64,000 bases of DNA from Balnearium lithotrophicum (lineage in GTDB: Bacteria; Aquificota; Aquificia; Desulfurobacteriales; Desulfurobacteriaceae). Position 1 is the first letter of the stretch, and the number at the start of each line of letters is the position of its first letter. The translations under genes and the position numbers were made by a program. Below the pieces are notes generated by a model. It searched no databases. It was given only the letters and a program-made list of their open reading frames with translations, and was not told the DNA's origin. The stretch lies in contig NZ_FXTM01000001.1 of assembly GCF_900182585.1 (NCBI RefSeq), positions 62,001 to 126,000 of the forward strand, given 5' to 3'. Shown here piece after piece: positions 31,490-40,452 of the stretch.

Positions 31490-32752
31490 GTGGGGATAGA
31501 TAGGCTTGTACTTGCGGCGGTGGGAGCGGGGCTATTGGCCAGCAGTTCCTATGGAGCTGTTAACGTCCCTGGTTTTGAAGGAGAACTCAAGACCCAAGTT
31601 GAGTTTAGACAGGATATTTACGATAGGGATTCTATCCCATTTGATAACTACTTAAAGTTGGACGTGAGGGACCTAAAGGGGACGGAGCTCCACTTTTACG
31701 GAAAACTCTGGAAGGATTTGGGCTATGGAACTGACTGGGACTTAGACCTTTACCAGCTTTACATAGAAGTTCCCTTAAAAGGAGCGAATTCTGTTTTTTC
31801 TGTCGGTAGGCAGTTTATCTCTGAAGGTTTTGAGACGTATACAGCGGATGCTGTTAAGTTTACAAACAGGCTTAAAAATGGCCTCAGGTACACGTTTTAC
31901 TTAGGTAAACCGAGGTTCTTTGAACCTAACACTCCTGATGGTGATGACCTTTTGGCAGGATTTAAGTTTGACTACAAGGGATACTTCTTAGGCTTCGAGC
32001 ACTTAAGGGACGATGGAAAGGTTAAAAAATCCTCGTTTGTGTTTGGGAATTACAGGTACCTGACTGAAAAAATTGCACAGTACAGCAGATTGGAAGTCGA
32101 CACAGCCCACGGTGAATTAACAGACTTCAACCTTGGCCTTAACTACTTTCCTACCAAGAGACTAAGACTTAATACTGAAGTTGAGTACTACGACAACTCC
32201 TACTTTTACGGCGATAAAACAGTTCCCGAGGATAGGATTTTTTACCTCTTTTCACCCAACGGCAGGGAGCTAAGGTTTACTCAGAGTGCTCATTACGACT
32301 TAACAAAGAAGTGGGAGCTTTTCGGTAGCTATACCCTAACTGACGTTCAGAGGGACGGGAAGGACAACGGTTATTTAGCTAAACTTGGAGCAGTGAGGGA
32401 TACCTGGTTTGAAAACGGCTTGAGGGCTTACGGAGCTCTCCTCTATCAAAACAGCTGGATAGGAATTTTAAGGGGAGTTGAATTTGGTTTTACAAAGTAC
32501 GTATGTAGAAAATTGACCTTAAACGGTACGGCTCAGATTGCCAGATACGACAAGGTTACTTATGGAAAACAGTGGGCAAGCGCCTACTACTTGAAGGGTG
32601 TCTATCAAACCAGTGAATTTTCAAATCTTGAATTGGGTGTCGATTACAGAAACAATGAGGATTTTGACCGTGATTTAAGGTTAATCCTCAGGTACAACCT
32701 CCTTTTCTGGGGTGGAACTGGAAAAAAGGAGAGGACAGAGGATAGAAGATGA
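31490..32752 (+). CDS. Outer-membrane beta-barrel, porin-like, first gene of cytochrome operon
   Basis: A 420-residue protein starting at GTG 31490, with an N-terminal signal sequence (LVLAAVGAGLLASSSYGA). The mature part alternates hydrophobic and polar residues in long strands ending in aromatics, for example LRYTFYLGKPRFF, LDLYQLYIEVP and YLKGVYQTSEFSNLELGVDYR, and its last strand LRLILRYNLLFWG ends close to the C-terminus. This is typical of a 16- to 18-strand barrel. No haem site is present. In conduits such as MtrB, ExtD/OmbB-like or Oet-type systems, a barrel next to cytochromes carries electrons across the outer membrane. That role is inferred from context. Confidence 0.72.
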   Translation: MGIDRLVLAAVGAGLLASSSYGAVNVPGFEGELKTQVEFRQDIYDRDSIPFDNYLKLDVRDLKGTELHFYGKLWKDLGYGTDWDLDLYQLYIEVPLKGANSVFSVGRQFISEGFETYTADAVKFTNRLKNGLRYTFYLGKPRFFEPNTPDGDDLLAGFKFDYKGYFLGFEHLRDDGKVKKSSFVFGNYRYLTEKIAQYSRLEVDTAHGELTDFNLGLNYFPTKRLRLNTEVEYYDNSYFYGDKTVPEDRIFYLFSPNGRELRFTQSAHYDLTKKWELFGSYTLTDVQRDGKDNGYLAKLGAVRDTWFENGLRAYGALLYQNSWIGILRGVEFGFTKYVCRKLTLNGTAQIARYDKVTYGKQWASAYYLKGVYQTSEFSNLELGVDYRNNEDFDRDLRLILRYNLLFWGGTGKKERTEDRR

Positions 32753-33348
32753 GAAAATCCATGCTGATTTTTCTAATTGGACTGGCGTTCTTAAGTTCCT
32801 GTGGAAAGGGTAGTGTCAAGTACAGTGAGGAACTTGCTGCTACCGCAAAGTTTCACCATAGGGAACACAAGTCGTTTATAGATAAGCACGGCTGTATTCC
32901 CTGTCATAAGATGAACGTTAAGATGTCCTTTTCTGATATAGAGGCAGCAGAGAGGGGTTCCAAGAAAATAATAATGCCTTCAAAGGTTACCTGCCATTAC
33001 TGTCACAACAATCCTGGAAAAACACCAGCTCCTAACGCACCAACCCAGTGTTACATTTGTCACTTCAACATGAAGGAGATAGAACCTGCCGACCACAAAA
33101 CGGGAAATTGGCTTAAAACTCACAAGTTCGCCTACGAAGGAAAACCTAAAAAGTGTAGTGAGTGTCACAGACAGAGGTTCTGTATCGATTGCCACCAGCG
33201 AAGGGATACAATCCAACACCTTGTTCACCCGAGAAACTACGAGTATACCCACAGTATAGAGGCAGCAGCAGACCCTGCTAAGTGTAGCAGGTGTCACAGG
33301 GTTGGATTCTGTATGGAATGCCATACTAAGGGGAACTGGTCAAGATGA
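32749..33348 (+). CDS. Seven-haem c-type cytochrome lipoprotein
   Basis: A 199-residue protein with a lipobox (LAFLSSC, Cys about 18). There are seven CxxCH motifs: CIPCH, CHYCH, CYICH, CSECH, CIDCH, CSRCH and CMECH, so one haem per ~26 residues. The lipid anchor would place it at the outer membrane facing the periplasm or, if flipped, the cell surface. It overlaps the barrel gene by 4 bases. Such a close barrel-lipocytochrome pair is the basic unit of porin-cytochrome conduits. The redox partner is not known. Confidence 0.85.
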   Translation: MRKSMLIFLIGLAFLSSCGKGSVKYSEELAATAKFHHREHKSFIDKHGCIPCHKMNVKMSFSDIEAAERGSKKIIMPSKVTCHYCHNNPGKTPAPNAPTQCYICHFNMKEIEPADHKTGNWLKTHKFAYEGKPKKCSECHRQRFCIDCHQRRDTIQHLVHPRNYEYTHSIEAAADPAKCSRCHRVGFCMECHTKGNWSR

Positions 33349-34217
33349 GGAAGGGAATACTGCTTACGTTTGTTCTAATTTTAAGCTTCATCAATTCGGA
33401 AGCTAAAGAGTGTGGTGGAAAGGGATACACCGGAACTGACAAATCCTACTGTCTGAGTTGCCATAGGAGTGGTTGTCCTATCGTCCATCCAGTTTCTATT
33501 GAAATTAGAAAGACGGAATGTATCGATGTTCCCGAGAATTTCCCAAGGGCAGAAGATAACAGAATGACCTGTGCAACTTGCCACGATATGACCTCCAACA
33601 GGAAGAAATTCTTAAGGGGAAAGGGAGAGTTTAAGGAGAGGTACTCCTTCTGTTTCCAGTGTCACAATAGAGAGTGTTATAAAAAGTTTAATCCTCACAG
33701 GACAATATCCTCCAAATTAAGTTGGAACGAAAAGAAGAAGGCCTGTATATACTGTCACGGTTTTGGAGCAAAGCTCAACGCTTACAGAGCCTGCGTTGGG
33801 TGCCACACCAAGACTCCTCACGTTGGAGCTCCCGAGCATATCTTTGCAAAGCGGGAGGAGGTTTTAAAACTAACAAAGGGAAAGAAGGAAATTTTTAATG
33901 TATCTACGATGAAACAGTTAAATCCAAAAATTGATATCAATGAACTTAAAAAGAGAAAGCCCAAAGTCATTTTGGTAAACGGAAGGATTGAGTGTATAAC
34001 CTGCCACAATCCACATCCTCAAATTGCCATTCCTGCCCCTCCTGAGAGGAATCCGTGGGGGAGTATGGAGAGGGCAGATTTTGAGTACAAAGTGAAAAAG
34101 CTCAACGAGGAGCTCTCAAAGTTTGAAGTTAACACCAATGGCGTAAAGCTTATGAGTAGAGATTTGAGAAGTGGCAAACTGTGTAAGGTCTGCCACTCCA
34201 TCAACTCGCTTAAGTAG
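33345..34217 (+). CDS. Seven-haem c-type cytochrome
   Basis: A 290-residue protein with a cleavable signal peptide (KGILLTFVLILSFINSEAKE). It has seven CxxCH motifs: CLSCH, CATCH, CFQCH, CIYCH, CVGCH, CITCH and CKVCH. Extra cysteines (CGGKG, SGCPIVH, NRECYKK) may form disulfides. A ~90-residue stretch between motifs five and six has no haem site. It overlaps the upstream gene by 4 bases and is 10 bases ahead of the next, again in one transcript. Predicted periplasmic electron carrier. Confidence 0.83.
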   Translation: MRKGILLTFVLILSFINSEAKECGGKGYTGTDKSYCLSCHRSGCPIVHPVSIEIRKTECIDVPENFPRAEDNRMTCATCHDMTSNRKKFLRGKGEFKERYSFCFQCHNRECYKKFNPHRTISSKLSWNEKKKACIYCHGFGAKLNAYRACVGCHTKTPHVGAPEHIFAKREEVLKLTKGKKEIFNVSTMKQLNPKIDINELKKRKPKVILVNGRIECITCHNPHPQIAIPAPPERNPWGSMERADFEYKVKKLNEELSKFEVNTNGVKLMSRDLRSGKLCKVCHSINSLK

Positions 34218-34227
34218 GGGGTAGAGA

Positions 34228-35316
34228 GTGAAAGCCTTTATATTGGGATTAGCGGGAGCACTTGTAGTTTCCGGTTCGGCCTTTGGAATGAGTGATGATG
34301 GCTGTTTGGTCTGTCATAGGTTAAAGGGACTTTCCGTTGTAGATGAGAAGAATGAAATAAAGGACTGCAGTATTTCTGAAGCTCTCTTTGCCCATTCAAT
34401 CCACAGAAACGTTGGATGTACAGAGTGTCACTCGAAGATTGAGGAGTATCCCCACAAGCCGGAAAACGCAAAGGTTAACTGTGCTACCCAGTGTCACGTT
34501 GTTGACCCTTCAACGAAGAAGCCATTTTCCCACGAGGATGTATTTAAAACCTGGAAGGAGAGTGTTCACGGTAAGAACTACGAAAAGGCTCCAGATGTCT
34601 ATCCTTACTGTACGTACTGCCATACAAACAGCTTACTCGTGGACGTATCAAAGCTCTCTGCTATGAAGATGAGTCTTGATAGGTGTTCAATCTGCCACGA
34701 AAATAAGAGCTGGCTGAAGGACAGACTGTCCCACGTTGCAAGCAGGGAGCCAATTCCAGTTATAAAAAATGGATTTACCCACTCCTTTATTAAGACAAGA
34801 AGGGATGGATGGGAAATTGTAGAGCTCTGTGCCTCCTGCCACGAGGATGAAAAGAAAATGGAAAGAGCTCTTGATATAGAAGGAATTGAAGACAAGTTTG
34901 AGAGAGAGCACGTTCTAACAGCCGTTGAATCCTACAAGGTTACAATGCACTCCAAAATGCTCTACTTGGATAGGAATGATACAAGGGCTGCAGACTGCCT
35001 CGACTGTCATACGAACAAGGACGGTAACTTCCACGATATATTCCATAAAGATAACCCCCGTTCCTCTATAAATGCCAAGAATATTGAGCTAACCTGTGGT
35101 CGTTCAACAGAGTGTCACCCGCTGGCTCCTGCAAAGGATATGAAGAACTTTGCAACAACCAAGTGGGTTCACATGCATCCTATTCCAGACTCTTTAGGAC
35201 AGAAGATAGTTAAGATAGTCGAAGAATTCATGTTCTGGCTCACAACAGGAACTCTCCTCTTTGCAGTTTCAATTGTTGGCTTAGACCTTCTTAAAAACTT
35301 GAGGAGGAAACACTAA
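34228..35316 (+). CDS. Membrane-anchored multihaem cytochrome with unusual haem motifs
   Basis: A 362-residue protein with a signal peptide and a C-terminal membrane helix (about 332-354). Six canonical sites are present: CLVCH, CTECH, CTYCH, CSICH, CASCH and CLDCH. Two further sites have longer spacers: CATQCH (CX3CH, about residue 86) and CGRSTECH (CX5CH, about 290). If both bind haem the protein holds eight. The C-terminal anchor places it on the periplasmic face of the inner membrane, next to the cytochrome b encoded directly after it (stop/start overlap). It probably takes electrons from that cytochrome b. Confidence 0.83.
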   Translation: MKAFILGLAGALVVSGSAFGMSDDGCLVCHRLKGLSVVDEKNEIKDCSISEALFAHSIHRNVGCTECHSKIEEYPHKPENAKVNCATQCHVVDPSTKKPFSHEDVFKTWKESVHGKNYEKAPDVYPYCTYCHTNSLLVDVSKLSAMKMSLDRCSICHENKSWLKDRLSHVASREPIPVIKNGFTHSFIKTRRDGWEIVELCASCHEDEKKMERALDIEGIEDKFEREHVLTAVESYKVTMHSKMLYLDRNDTRAADCLDCHTNKDGNFHDIFHKDNPRSSINAKNIELTCGRSTECHPLAPAKDMKNFATTKWVHMHPIPDSLGQKIVKIVEEFMFWLTTGTLLFAVSIVGLDLLKNLRRKH

Positions 35317-36248
35317 TGGGAATTTGGGAAGCTTTTAAAAGGAGATTTAGGGTAAGGGCAGAGCAGGATAAGCTTCTCATCGTAGACGGTGAGAAGATAA
35401 TGATACAGAAGTTTACTCTCTTTCAAAGGCTCCTCCACGTTGGTATCTTTTCAACGTTCATCTGGCAGATAATTACTGGATACCCCTTAAAGTTCTACGA
35501 TACAGCTTGGGCAAGGCCGATAATAGACTTGTTAGGTGGAATTCCTGGAGAGATGACAATTCACAGAATTTCCGGTTTCATCATGTTTTCAGACTTCCTC
35601 TTAACGGTTCTATACTTGATACTTATTCTCATAGCAAACTGGGATTTGGCAAAGAAGGACTTTTTCGGTTACTTTAAGATTGTTCCCGGACCAACCGACG
35701 TTACATTCGTTCACTACATTAAATATCTCTTAGGATTCAGGAAGGTTCCTCCAGATTGGGACGAGTACATCTGGGTCGATAAGTTTGACTTCTGGGCCGT
35801 TGGTTGGGGTATGCTTGCAATCGGTATTACAGGTTGGATACTCTGGCTTCCAGAGGTTTTTACTGGATTTCTTCACCTTCCGCCAGAAACTGTGCAGATT
35901 GCATACTTGATGCACTCTGACGAAGCTGTTTTGGCCTTAGGCTGGATAGCCTTAGTTCACATGTACATGGTTCACTACGGACCTAACAAGTTCCCGATGG
36001 ACTGGATTTGGCTTACAGGAACAGCCTCAGAGGTAGAGTGGATTGAGGAAAGACCAAGGAGCTACAGGAGAATTATTAAGGCTGTAGCTGAAAACGAACC
36101 CCACCTCTTAGAGAAGTATCCCTTTTTAAAGGAACGTTACGAGTTTGTCCGTGAAGTTGAGAAACTTCCAGAAGAAGAGATGATAGAGAAGATGCACGAG
36201 TACGCTCACCATCTCCTTGAAAAGGAAGTTGAAGGGAGGACTGCATAA
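35316..36248 (+). CDS. Di-haem cytochrome b membrane subunit
   Basis: A 310-residue protein with four or five membrane helices. The N-terminal ~30 residues are cytoplasmic and basic. Histidine ligands for two b haems are likely in LLHVGIFSTFIWQ (helix 1), MTIHRISGFIMF (helix 2) and ALGWIALVHMYMVHYG (last helix). This is the cytochrome b561/formate-dehydrogenase gamma-subunit fold (Ni/Fe-hydrogenase cytB family). It should oxidise or reduce menaquinone and exchange electrons with the c cytochromes on the outside. The C-terminal ~65 residues are soluble and acidic. Confidence 0.82.
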   Translation: MGIWEAFKRRFRVRAEQDKLLIVDGEKIMIQKFTLFQRLLHVGIFSTFIWQIITGYPLKFYDTAWARPIIDLLGGIPGEMTIHRISGFIMFSDFLLTVLYLILILIANWDLAKKDFFGYFKIVPGPTDVTFVHYIKYLLGFRKVPPDWDEYIWVDKFDFWAVGWGMLAIGITGWILWLPEVFTGFLHLPPETVQIAYLMHSDEAVLALGWIALVHMYMVHYGPNKFPMDWIWLTGTASEVEWIEERPRSYRRIIKAVAENEPHLLEKYPFLKERYEFVREVEKLPEEEMIEKMHEYAHHLLEKEVEGRTA

Positions 36249-36961
36249 TGAGAAAGTATCTAATAGCATTGTTACTCATATCAGCACCCTCTTTAGCTGT
36301 AGAGAGTCCTCTTCTCTCTGCTCCATCTGCTGATACATCAACTTGGGCTCAGAAACTTAAGGAGTTTAAGAGGCCTGAGTTACCAAAAGTAAAGGAGTAT
36401 CCTAAGCCGTTTCACTACGAAAACCAATACAGTTATAAAATGAACGATGTCTGTTCGGCATGTCATACATTTGCTGCACACAAGAAGGACAGAAAGTACT
36501 CACCGTTCTACAATGCCCACAGTACATTCATGAGCTGCAACACGTGCCACTTTGTTAAAGAGGGTTTGAACTACAGCTGGGCTGAAATAGACAAAGGAAA
36601 CGTAAAGCTTTTAAAGAGTGGTGATTTCTACGGATTAAAGTATATTAAAGTAGGAAACAGGATTATGCTCTCTGGAGAGGAGAGTAGTGCAAAAATAGTT
36701 CCCGTTTATGAGGGAAAACCTGTAGAGCTTCCTCTTAAGGGAAATGAAGAACTTTTAAAGGATGTCAATTCAGTTGCAAAAATGCACAATGCACTTACGG
36801 ATAATCCGTTAAAGTGTGAGGACTGCCATAAGGAAAATGGAGTTCTTAACTTTAGGGAACTTGGATTCTCAGAGGAGAGAATAAAGGACCTTGAACACAA
36901 CGAGGTTGTAAAGGGATTGAAGGAATACAAAACAATCCACTTCCCCAAATTTATCTGGTAA
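36248..36961 (+). CDS. Three-haem c-type cytochrome
   Basis: A 237-residue protein with a signal peptide (RKYLIALLLISAPSLAVE). It has three CxxCH sites: CSACH (about 76), CNTCH (about 98) and CEDCH (about 196). Further His residues (FAAH, NAHST, MHNAL) may be distal ligands. Haem density is low compared with its neighbours and a ~75-residue soluble part separates sites two and three. I do not recognise the family. It overlaps the cytochrome b stop and precedes the NHL protein. Confidence 0.8.
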   Translation: MRKYLIALLLISAPSLAVESPLLSAPSADTSTWAQKLKEFKRPELPKVKEYPKPFHYENQYSYKMNDVCSACHTFAAHKKDRKYSPFYNAHSTFMSCNTCHFVKEGLNYSWAEIDKGNVKLLKSGDFYGLKYIKVGNRIMLSGEESSAKIVPVYEGKPVELPLKGNEELLKDVNSVAKMHNALTDNPLKCEDCHKENGVLNFRELGFSEERIKDLEHNEVVKGLKEYKTIHFPKFIW

Positions 36962-36973
36962 GGGGTAGAGATA

Positions 36974-37780
36974 ATGAAGAAAGGATTTTTAACTGTTCTG
37001 TTTCTTGTTTTAATGGCAGTTACCACCGTTGCAGGAGAAATAAAGGGAAACTGGAAGTTCCCCTCTGATATAGCCGTTTCAAACGGGAAACTCTACGTCG
37101 TTGATGGTCTGAACAACAGAATTTCAGTCTACGACCTGTACGGTGAACATCTAACGGATATAAGGATTGATTCCCCTTACGGAATTTTTGCCTTTAACGG
37201 CCTTATATATACTGTAAGTCAAAAGGGAAAGCTTACAGTGATGGACGAAAATGGTGGCGTTGAAAAGGTTTTAAACCTCGAAGGAAGGCCTATCGATGTT
37301 GTTAAGATTGGTTCAAAACTCTTTGTAACAGATGGAAAGAGTGAATCTATTGATGTTTACGACCTTGACGGGAACCTTATAAGAAAAGTTGGTGGTAAAG
37401 GAACAGCTCCTGGAAACTTTGTCGGAATATTCCTGAGTGATGCTTCAAAGAATACGTTGTTTGTTGTTGACTCTGTAAATGCCAGGATTCAAGAGTTTAG
37501 TAAGGATGGAAGCTTTGTTCGTCAGTTTGGAAAGTTTGGAATTGAGGAGGGAGACCTCTTTAGACCCAAGGGAGTTGCTTACTGTGGAAATGGAAACTTG
37601 GTGGTTTCAGATGCCATAACTGGAGCTCTTCAGCTTTTCAACATTTACGGCGGTTTTGAAAGGGTAATAGCTAAAGGACTCTACTATCCAACAGCTGTTG
37701 CCTGTTACAGAGGAGAGGTATTTGTCCTTGAACCCCTCAAGAACAGGGTACTTACATTTAAAGTTCAAGGAGTCAAGTAA
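36974..37780 (+). CDS. Secreted NHL-repeat beta-propeller protein
   Basis: A 268-residue protein with a signal peptide (KKGFLTVLFLVLMAVTTVAGE). Five or six NHL-type blades are visible, with repeated patterns such as FPSDIAVSNGKLYVVDGLNNRISVYD and NTLFVVDSVNARIQEFSKDG; between them FVRQFGKFGIEEGDLFRPKGVAY is a classic blade boundary. It has no haem site. NHL proteins are found beside multihaem cytochromes in metal-reducing and syntrophic bacteria and are thought to hold complexes together. The stop touches the start of the 24-haem gene. Confidence 0.85.
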   Translation: MKKGFLTVLFLVLMAVTTVAGEIKGNWKFPSDIAVSNGKLYVVDGLNNRISVYDLYGEHLTDIRIDSPYGIFAFNGLIYTVSQKGKLTVMDENGGVEKVLNLEGRPIDVVKIGSKLFVTDGKSESIDVYDLDGNLIRKVGGKGTAPGNFVGIFLSDASKNTLFVVDSVNARIQEFSKDGSFVRQFGKFGIEEGDLFRPKGVAYCGNGNLVVSDAITGALQLFNIYGGFERVIAKGLYYPTAVACYRGEVFVLEPLKNRVLTFKVQGVK

Positions 37781-40452
37781 TGAGGAAATCACTGCTTCTT
37801 TTGCTGTCAATTTTGGTAGCACCTAACGTTTCAGAGGCAAAACTAAAAAAGAGTATGAAAAAGGAGTGTTTGGTCTGTCATGAGAACTGGCTCCTTGAGT
37901 CAAAGATAAAGTCACCCAATTTGCTAACCACAGAATCCTATAGGGCAGCTGATAAATTAATGTGTTTAACCTGCCACGATGGTTCAATGGCAGACGATAG
38001 GCTCACCTTTTTAGGTTTTAAACACTTCTCACATCCTGTTAATAAAAAAGTACCTGAAGATTTTAAGATGCCAAAAGGTTTTCCCCTTCAAAATGGAAGG
38101 CTCTACTGTGGAACGTGCCATACACCCCATACAAAAACGGGAAGTGAGAAGAAGTTAGACTACACATTTATGAGGGAACCGAACGTAAATTCCTCCCTCT
38201 GTATGAAGTGTCACAAGGAGAATGAGGAGCACGGTAGAAACCACCCAATCTTTAAGGAAGAAAGGGAACCCTTAAAGTTAGAGTATGCCCTTAAAATCGA
38301 AAAGTTGGGTGGAAAACTGACAGACGATGGAAAAGTTAGGTGTGAATCGTGCCACTCTGCCCACAGGGGAAGGGCTAAAAACGCCCTCATTGAAAGGGCT
38401 GACAACTCCCTCCTGTGTTCGGTATGTCACATTGAAAACGTTAATTCAAAGGAACATCCAAACTTTAGGAATCACCCCATACATAAGAAGTTACCTAAAA
38501 ATGCGGATGTTTCTTTCTTTAAGGAAAATAAAGCCGTTACAAAGTCCGTTGAATGTATGACGTGTCACAAGGTTCATAAAGAGGAGAATAAGCACCTCCT
38601 CGTAGCTAACGAGAGGAAACTCTGTATTCTCTGTCACGTTAGCGAGAAACCTGTCCTTAAAACAAAACACAACATAAGCGACAAGGGATGTAGCTCATGT
38701 CACATAGCTCATAAAGCAAAGGGAAGGAAACTGTGGAGTAGGGAGATTCCTGAAGATGCCTTTGACTATGCTGCACTGATTGAGGCACGAGGAAAAACCG
38801 ATATACTCTGTCTATCCTGTCACTATCCTGAACACGTTATAAACGGTAAGGAAGTTGAAACTGTTGGAACGTTAACCCACCCAACAGGTAAGAAGGTTGA
38901 AGGAAAGGTAAAGCTTCCTCTGCCTGGAGGAAGACTTGCCTGTACAACCTGTCATGACCCGCACCATTCGTTCAACAATAATCCAAAGGGTAAATTCCTT
39001 AGAAAGGAGAGGGTATCCTTATGTATAACCTGTCATAGGGAAGAAGCTGATGTTAAAAGGGGAGCTCACGGGGAGATAGATAAGAAAAGGTGGAAAAAGG
39101 GAGACTGTGCAGCATGCCATAACGTTCACAAGGCTAAGGGCGGTTATCTGTCAAGGGTAGTTTATGGAGAAATTTCACCTATGGAACCTCCCGTTGATGG
39201 ATTCTGTCTGGCGTGTCACGACCCAGAGGGTATGGCAAAACACAAGGTTAAGGAAAGTATCTTTAACGAGCACCCAGTAGGTGTTGATAACCCTACGGAT
39301 AAACTTCCTGGAAGGAAGGTTTCTTGTGCAACATGCCACAACCCCCATACCCATAAGGAAGAACTTCTGAGAATTCCCGTTAGAGAAAACTCTAAACTCT
39401 GTATTACCTGTCATACTGATGAGAACTTAACAAACAGTTCCCACGATATCCTTAAAAATAGGAACGTTAAGCTTTCAGAAAAAGAAAGAGAGGAGATTGT
39501 TAAACACGGTTCCTGTTCAATCTGTCACACTCCTCACAATCCTAAGTTTAAAGTTCTCTGGAGCCGAAAACCAGGAAAAGGAGAGACTATTGGAGAAAGG
39601 CTCTGTAGCTCTTGTCACTCTAAAGGAGGTTTAGCTGAAGACAGGACGATAGGTAGGTTTAGCCATCCGATTGGAGAGAAGGTAACCGAAAAGAACAGAA
39701 GTATGATACTAAACTCGAGGCTTCCTCTCGTTAACCAAATGACTGGTCATGTAGCAAAGAGAGGAGAGAAGGGTGTATTTGACTGTGCAACATGTCACGA
39801 CCCCCATAATGGAGCAGATAAAAAGAGATTGATAAGATATACGTTAGAAGGGGATAGTTTACTGTGTACAGCATGCCACAGGGCAGAGAGCAAGGTTATA
39901 GGAACAGACCACGATATGAGAGTGGTTAATAAAAACTTTAAGAATGCCCTTGGAAAGGTAGTCCTTAAAGATGGAGTCTGTTCTGCATGCCACGTTCCCC
40001 ATAAAGCTAAGGACAAATTACTATGGGCAACTGACATCAAGGAAATTTCCGGAAATAGAATGTCAGATTACTGTCTAACCTGCCACTCTAAATCAGGTGT
40101 TGCAAAGGATAAGGTAGTTAAGTTCTACTACCATCCTAAGAAGGATGTTACTGTCAGGAGCTTCGACAGACCCGGAAGGGAAGGTGATTGGCCTATTTTT
40201 GATAAAAATGGAAAGAGGGTACTCGCAGGTGGTGAAATTACATGTGAAACGTGCCACGACCCACACGTTTGGAGTAAGTGGGAGAAAAAACCACCTATGA
40301 AGCCTGTTGAAGGTAGTGCACTCAACAGCTTCTTAAGGAATAGGGACCTAAAAGGTAGTATCTGTGTGGATTGCCACGGTCTGGATGCTCTATTTAGGTA
40401 CAAAATGTTCCACTGGAAGAAAGCACACAGTAAGAAGCCCTCTTACAGGTAA
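37780..40452 (+). CDS. Twenty-four-haem c-type cytochrome with tandem repeats
   Basis: An 890-residue secreted protein (signal RKSLLLLLSILVAPNVSEA). I count 24 CxxCH motifs, from CLVCH near residue 30 to CVDCH near 865, about one haem per 36 residues. Modules repeat about every 140 residues: four copies of a CxxCHxxHKAK-type segment followed by LW/YLS (CSSCH, CAACH, CSICH, CSACH), alternating with GxxxCxTCHDPH segments. These pairs resemble the doubled-CXXCH (c3-like) fold. Such size suits a long electron wire in the periplasm or outside the cell. It has no catalytic domain and no anchor that I can see. Confidence 0.9.
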   Translation: MRKSLLLLLSILVAPNVSEAKLKKSMKKECLVCHENWLLESKIKSPNLLTTESYRAADKLMCLTCHDGSMADDRLTFLGFKHFSHPVNKKVPEDFKMPKGFPLQNGRLYCGTCHTPHTKTGSEKKLDYTFMREPNVNSSLCMKCHKENEEHGRNHPIFKEEREPLKLEYALKIEKLGGKLTDDGKVRCESCHSAHRGRAKNALIERADNSLLCSVCHIENVNSKEHPNFRNHPIHKKLPKNADVSFFKENKAVTKSVECMTCHKVHKEENKHLLVANERKLCILCHVSEKPVLKTKHNISDKGCSSCHIAHKAKGRKLWSREIPEDAFDYAALIEARGKTDILCLSCHYPEHVINGKEVETVGTLTHPTGKKVEGKVKLPLPGGRLACTTCHDPHHSFNNNPKGKFLRKERVSLCITCHREEADVKRGAHGEIDKKRWKKGDCAACHNVHKAKGGYLSRVVYGEISPMEPPVDGFCLACHDPEGMAKHKVKESIFNEHPVGVDNPTDKLPGRKVSCATCHNPHTHKEELLRIPVRENSKLCITCHTDENLTNSSHDILKNRNVKLSEKEREEIVKHGSCSICHTPHNPKFKVLWSRKPGKGETIGERLCSSCHSKGGLAEDRTIGRFSHPIGEKVTEKNRSMILNSRLPLVNQMTGHVAKRGEKGVFDCATCHDPHNGADKKRLIRYTLEGDSLLCTACHRAESKVIGTDHDMRVVNKNFKNALGKVVLKDGVCSACHVPHKAKDKLLWATDIKEISGNRMSDYCLTCHSKSGVAKDKVVKFYYHPKKDVTVRSFDRPGREGDWPIFDKNGKRVLAGGEITCETCHDPHVWSKWEKKPPMKPVEGSALNSFLRNRDLKGSICVDCHGLDALFRYKMFHWKKAHSKKPSYR

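Follow-up and report, generated by a model that had tools for sequence, protein, structure and literature searches.

A 24-haem cytochrome of six OmcE-like units in Balnearium lithotrophicum: a probable single-chain wire from an inner-membrane quinol module

Introduction

The cytochrome nanowires described so far assemble without covalent bonds between subunits and have no defined length, and it is not settled by what route electrons cross the periplasm to them. In the filaments of OmcE and OmcS, neighbouring subunits have an axial histidine in common, and the rise in the OmcE filament is 34 Å per subunit (PMC9473688, PMC12954529). The large periplasmic cytochrome of PCC3, found in iron oxidisers, carries 21-27 haems, and a periplasm-spanning role has been put forward for it (PMC10734462, PMC5566968); a long wire in the periplasm is thus in itself no new idea. 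The Uet conduit comprises NHL proteins, an undecahaem cytochrome, a barrel and an extracellular tetrahaem cytochrome (PMC10734462), and in Geobacter, Cbc5 is encoded by a cluster of quinol oxidoreductase genes that includes a multihaem protein of the periplasm (PMC11434368).

Here we describe a cytochrome gene with 24 haem motifs in a window of 64,000 nucleotides from Balnearium lithotrophicum, a thermophilic deep-sea bacterium of the Desulfurobacteriaceae. The gene is the final one of a tight run that extends from a beta-barrel candidate through an NHL protein (Table 1), and its product, the giant cytochrome in what follows, resembles several of the above systems in part. Judging from its published description, PCC3 combines a five-helix inner-membrane protein and a large porin with a cytochrome of median 26 residues per haem, whereas the present locus combines about 37 residues per haem with a cytochrome b561, an NHL protein and a barrel candidate. 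The subunits of Cbc5 are CbcEDCBA with OmcQ, the latter being a 12-haem c7-type protein. Like Cbc5, our locus would pair a quinol module with a multihaem protein, but the giant cytochrome matches no c7 nanowire domain model; in particular, TIGR04257, for c7 trihaem repeats of the GSU1996/OmcQ type, is absent from its NCBIfam matches. Nor is it a listed component of Uet, and no 11-haem gene, such as the undecahaem UetJ, occurs among the operon genes of the window. Doubled CXXCH motifs and, probably, the form of a linear wire are common to the giant cytochrome and the MtrA/DmsE family, with a profile match of 1.8e-20 to chain 6r2q_A, which bears another label in the sequence file but is MtrA according to PMC9473688. 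However, the members of that family carry 10 haems, as against 24, and sit inside a porin, and the score of the giant cytochrome against the decahaem model TIGR03508, 140.3 bits, is below the cut-off of 192.2. As for the other filament cytochromes, OmcZ has eight haems and a long-loop (14-residue) motif at haem 1, whereas all motifs of the giant cytochrome are plain CxxCH, and OmcS, a hexahaem protein and thus different in haem number, gives a partial profile match (1.9e-8 over about 36 positions).

Results

A recount on the open reading frame agrees with the first-pass annotation, which had reported 24 CxxCH motifs in 890 residues. The motifs account for all 48 cysteines of the protein, with none elsewhere, and their retention, complete in every one of the 19 full-length sequences from the family, excludes chance. 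The protein has a Sec-type signal peptide and, as read by eye, no lipobox, and residues 21-29 (KLKKSMKKE) contain no histidine. The annotation had further listed four repeated blocks of HKAK type and a repeat length of about 140 residues. The repeats are real, but the exact HKAK occurs in just three of them (C304, C443, C734), with HNPK at C579 and HRGR at C188 as variants. The length holds, in that the protein consists of five 4-haem blocks of 128-153 residues, significantly alike (blocks 4 and 5 at E 2.5e-8 with the haem cysteines and histidines masked), and of two haems at either end. A scan for promoters and terminators gave site numbers not above those of shuffles.

Table 1. Features of the operon and of the giant cytochrome (window positions)
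Feature	Position	Strand	Remarks
Outer-membrane beta-barrel candidate	31490..32752	+	420 aa; judged from sequence
7-haem lipoprotein	32749..33348	+	Lipobox LSSC, by eye; found just in Desulfurobacteriaceae
7-haem secreted cytochrome	33345..34217	+
Subunit A	34228..35316	+	6 CxxCH and one CX3CH; C-terminal membrane helix
Subunit B, cytochrome b561-type inner-membrane protein	35316..36248	+	Pfam Ni_hydr_CYTB 7.7e-13
Subunit C, 3-haem periplasmic cytochrome	36248..36961	+
Subunit D, secreted NHL beta-propeller	36974..37780	+	Pfam NHL 2.6e-11
24-haem (giant) cytochrome	37780-40452	+	890 aa; ATG start
Signal peptide, residues 1-20	37780..37839	+	Read by eye; family-conserved
OmcE-like unit 1	37840..38214	+	C30, C62, C110, C141; donor His absent ahead of haem 1
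OmcE-like unit 2	38215..38637	+	C188, C213, C259, C282
OmcE-like unit 3	38638..39036	+	C304, C344, C388, C415
OmcE-like unit 4	39037..39414	+	C443, C476, C516, C541
OmcE-like unit 5	39415..39879	+	C579, C609, C669, C696; AlphaFold model, Foldseek, VIA, profile
OmcE-like unit 6	39880..40377	+	C734, C765, C822, C862
C-terminal cap GLDALFRYKMFH	40378..40449	+	H878 invariant in 19/19 family sequences

The register that fits the fold is one of six complete tetrahaem units, and not four: namely, haems 1-24 split exactly into six units in the register of OmcE. An origin by tandem duplication, also put forward in the annotation, stands on the similarity of the repeats, the unit HMM and the unit tree, but the process is ancient and not recent. 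In this tree, grouping follows position and not genome, with units orthologous by position across the family, so the duplications are older than the family, and recent tandem growth was rejected on the same ground. For homologues in Gammaproteobacteria, Desulfobacterota, Planctomycetota and Marinimicrobia, the unit HMM finds one and the same layout: two haems at the start, then a weak unit, then roughly three to five clear ones, and two haems at the end. Relatives vary in unit number (16-28 haems); within the family, 24 is the usual count, and the 28 haems seen in three genomes are due to one whole additional tetrahaem unit. Two genomes (G017:C21:10354-11265 and G020:C21:333-1238) have a second, partial copy that matches residues 319-681 of the giant cytochrome at about 60% identity; each may be a paralogue or a broken copy. 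Calditrichaeota offer a separate case of a 26-haem protein of 673 aa with regular, closely spaced haem repeats (L087:9785-11803).

A full-length AF2 model with 20 family sequences reached a pLDDT of 40 and is unusable, and the good model covers two of the six units. For this two-unit segment, AlphaFold gave a haem-free model with pLDDT 86 and pTM 0.80 from an alignment of 131 two-unit rows from five phyla; since the alignment mixes repeat copies, the packing of one unit against the next is less certain than the fold of a unit. The best PDB match of this model in Foldseek is OmcE of Geobacter (7tfs; E 4.8e-3, prob 0.99), with the others far behind. In VIA, OmcE superposes with Z 6.9 and 2.7 Å over 132 residues at 27% identity (model 47-194 on OmcE 30-231), in a list of 17 chains where the absence of other wires carries no meaning. 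Both the Foldseek E and the VIA Z are moderate. The matched stretch, with unit 5 as the one superposing on 7tfs, begins at the HD-type histidine behind haem b and reaches as far as haem b in the block that follows, which is the entire OmcE chain. What is more, a one-unit profile in OmcE register, searched against 177,635 PDB sequences, is led by 9yuq (1.6e-15) and OmcE (4.1e-15), whereas a profile built for contrast from the adjacent 7-haem family finds OmcE at 0.0098 and does not favour it. A single-sequence search of the PDB returned weak matches, to NrfB and OmcE as well as, locally, to NrfA (4e-5). With OmcE and 9yuq, the giant cytochrome shares a unit built of HD-His, CxxCHxPH...LW, CLSCH, HP, CxxCHxxH and LCxxCH, and the unit register and histidine order of the giant cytochrome agree with those of true OmcE-type proteins. 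The annotation had not placed the protein in the OmcE type, which is right for the whole chain and wrong for the unit, OmcE-like as it is in fold, profile and histidine order. Chain N of 9yuq, a putative multiheme cytochrome c of 218 aa present in 16 chains and OmcE-like at both ends, looks like a further OmcE-type filament entry.

While the fold is alike over the whole OmcE chain, and a linear row of haems is expected in the giant cytochrome too, the two proteins differ in how the chain begins and ends. OmcE is one tetrahaem unit that stops right after haem 4; the giant cytochrome has six units and 24 haems per chain, a capped tail of 24 residues, no N-terminal donor histidine, and a gene linked to inner-membrane genes. 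Apart from the motifs, exactly 24 histidine columns, for 24 haems, show no variation across all 19 full family sequences, and this leaves no evident open catalytic or coordination site. The ligand pattern of a tetrahaem block is CxxCHxxH, CxxCH..H, CxxCHxxH and CxxCH..HP; with distal ligands assigned by conservation and order, one distal histidine per haem would fit a wire that is bis-His throughout. Unit 1 is irregular, with CHxxH missing at haem 1 and an extra histidine, H155. In OmcE and its relatives, a histidine lies shortly ahead of haem 1 and the chain ends within two residues past haem 4, and from these ends and the papers' statement of a shared histidine we infer that OmcE lends its N-terminal HD histidine to the next subunit. 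In units 2-6 of the giant cytochrome, a histidine of HD type sits in the linker that leads from haem b to the following haem c; the residue presumably lent in OmcE would here occupy a cis position between units. At the far end, H878 is proposed to be the ligand that caps haem 24, the last, and the surrounding tail motif, G..AL.RY..FH, is kept with small variations in those homologues from other phyla whose 3' end is intact. In other words, with a histidine-free N-terminus and with H878 closing the last haem, the length of the wire would be set by the gene.

The stop codon of subunit D overlaps the start of the giant cytochrome gene by one base, and the two genes are linked well beyond the window too. 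Of the family genomes searched, just G012 (98% complete) and G021 (85% complete) gave no orthologue; the named relatives are Desulfurobacteriaceae, Thermovibrio and Desulfurobacterium. A search of viral contigs gave a single weak match. The core of subunits A to E (6-haem protein, cytochrome b, 3-haem protein, NHL protein, giant cytochrome) recurs in at least five phyla. Outside the family, the NHL protein is adjacent or fused in 33 of 46 giant homologues; where upstream sequence of more than 5 kb is available (35 homologues), cytochrome b and the 3-haem gene are present in 31. Fusions join A+B, B+C, A+B+C and, in some planctomycetes, NHL+giant; in G012, both the giant cytochrome and cytochrome b are missing. 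Fusions, synteny and joint absence are Rosetta-stone signs of one complex leading from the quinone pool to the wire. The surroundings of many modules also include relatives of the 7-haem secreted cytochrome, with 7-8 haems. At several loci in other phyla, genes of Uet type (NHL, 11-haem, and long ones free of haem motifs) are found close to the module. The barrel candidate has zero Pfam or NCBIfam matches, and its type was found just in Desulfurobacteriaceae.

No separate OmcE-type gene was found in the Desulfurobacteriaceae genomes. In Desulfobacterota and Gammaproteobacteria, true OmcE-type tetrahaem subunits are encoded near the giant module at four loci (L053:13073-13714, L055:13608-14270, L062:19874-20563 on the minus strand, and L064:12125-12760, the last matching OmcE at E 1.7e-24). 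Other Aquificota families have OmcE-type genes as well (G039, G041, G046 and G058; loci L121-L124), with products of about 236-244 aa that end two residues past haem 4, and OmcE-like filaments may thus be made by Aquificota of vents. One of these loci, L122, also has a 10-haem open reading frame of 729 aa with an OmcE-like unit at its start, possibly an intermediate or a different concatemer, and similar frames of 690-706 aa occur in G039, G041 and G058. Finally, a conserved 4-haem protein of other Aquificota (L023-L029; GPHEGLDCLGCHDPHYAKA; about 240-276 aa) has one unit in OmcE register and a C-terminal tail, about 90 residues long and free of haems.

Discussion

We consider it reasonably probable that the giant cytochrome is a covalently concatenated, capped cytochrome wire that feeds the outer membrane from an inner-membrane quinol module, and we infer a closed wire of fixed length, as opposed to a filament subunit or an enzyme. 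With six OmcE-like tetrahaem units within one chain, the axial histidine that joins subunits in the OmcE filament would come from a linker of the same chain, giving one polypeptide with a continuous row of 24 bis-His haems. By analogy with the OmcE rise per four haems, such a wire would measure about 6 x 34 Å, or about 20 nm. Electrons from menaquinol would enter at the pair of cytochrome b and 6-haem protein (B, with the proposed quinol site, and A) and be relayed by the 3-haem subunit C to the wire, which the NHL propeller D would dock; they would leave at the outer membrane via the 7-haem proteins and the candidate beta-barrel, whose genes lie upstream. The best reading is thus that of a wire spanning the periplasm from quinol dehydrogenase to outer membrane, by which respiratory electrons are probably carried across the cell envelope. 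Desulfurobacteriaceae are hydrogen oxidisers living on sulfur, thiosulfate or nitrate. From this metabolism, our guess for the direction is outward, and for the final acceptor an extracellular one such as sulfur or an Fe(III) mineral.

Would the protein not rather polymerise end to end into filaments at or outside the cell surface, as the first-pass annotation had suggested? Its units are OmcE-like by Foldseek, VIA and profile, a Sec signal is present, and OmcZ filaments form without a shared histidine (PMC9473688). That said, we find this quite improbable: the N-terminus has no OmcE-type donor histidine, the conserved C-terminal histidine can cap the last haem, and the module is tightly linked or even fused to inner-membrane quinol parts. 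The absence of a lipobox and the synteny with the quinol module suggest a periplasmic protein, the latter making the periplasm likelier than an extracellular filament. The four loci that encode both the giant module and a true OmcE-type subunit suggest that closed concatemer and open filament subunit do different jobs, and again favour the periplasm as the site of the concatemer.

A protein located in the periplasm might also be a wire or hub for a periplasmic reductase, or chiefly an electron store, with no exit at the outer membrane. Indeed, the A-E core occurs in several phyla without a barrel or lipoprotein of the types seen here, and 24 haems provide room for many electrons. We nevertheless regard this as unlikely, given that the operon of Desulfurobacteriaceae begins with the barrel-like protein and the 7-haem lipoprotein at all loci with enough flank, and that genes like those of the Uet conduit lie nearby at several other loci. 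As for a compact catalytic enzyme reducing a sulfur or nitrogen compound, for which one could invoke the local NrfA matches, its probability is very small indeed. One histidine for each haem leaves such a site no evident place, the matches by family profile and by fold are to wires, and the chain is modular, with a length that varies. The elongated wire expected in the annotation is accordingly favoured over an enzyme, and the part modelled, two units, is free of a compact soluble enzyme fold.

In the open-access literature, with many journals lying outside it, we found no paper that names multihaem cytochromes of Desulfurobacteriaceae or describes this module. The combination of OmcE-type unit, caps, NHL protein with quinol module, and spread over phyla appears to be new, although concatemers of OmcE may have been noticed before. 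More tentatively, and with a probability somewhat short of even, the module may amount to a widespread and apparently undescribed respiratory supercomplex, spread over at least five phyla. Its nanowire, fixed in length and built by fusion of OmcE units into a single capped chain, would bridge the periplasm covalently, as a kind of ruler, and be docked via NHL to a quinol dehydrogenase, the number of units (about 4 to 7) setting the span.

If the wire proposed here is real, a capped, single-chain OmcE wire, inherited together with its quinol dehydrogenase, would explain in part how electrons cross the periplasm. It would also provide conductivity measurements with a monodisperse wire whose haem count is known. 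For the organisms themselves, it would mean a pathway of extracellular respiration in vent bacteria that have so far not been known for such respiration.
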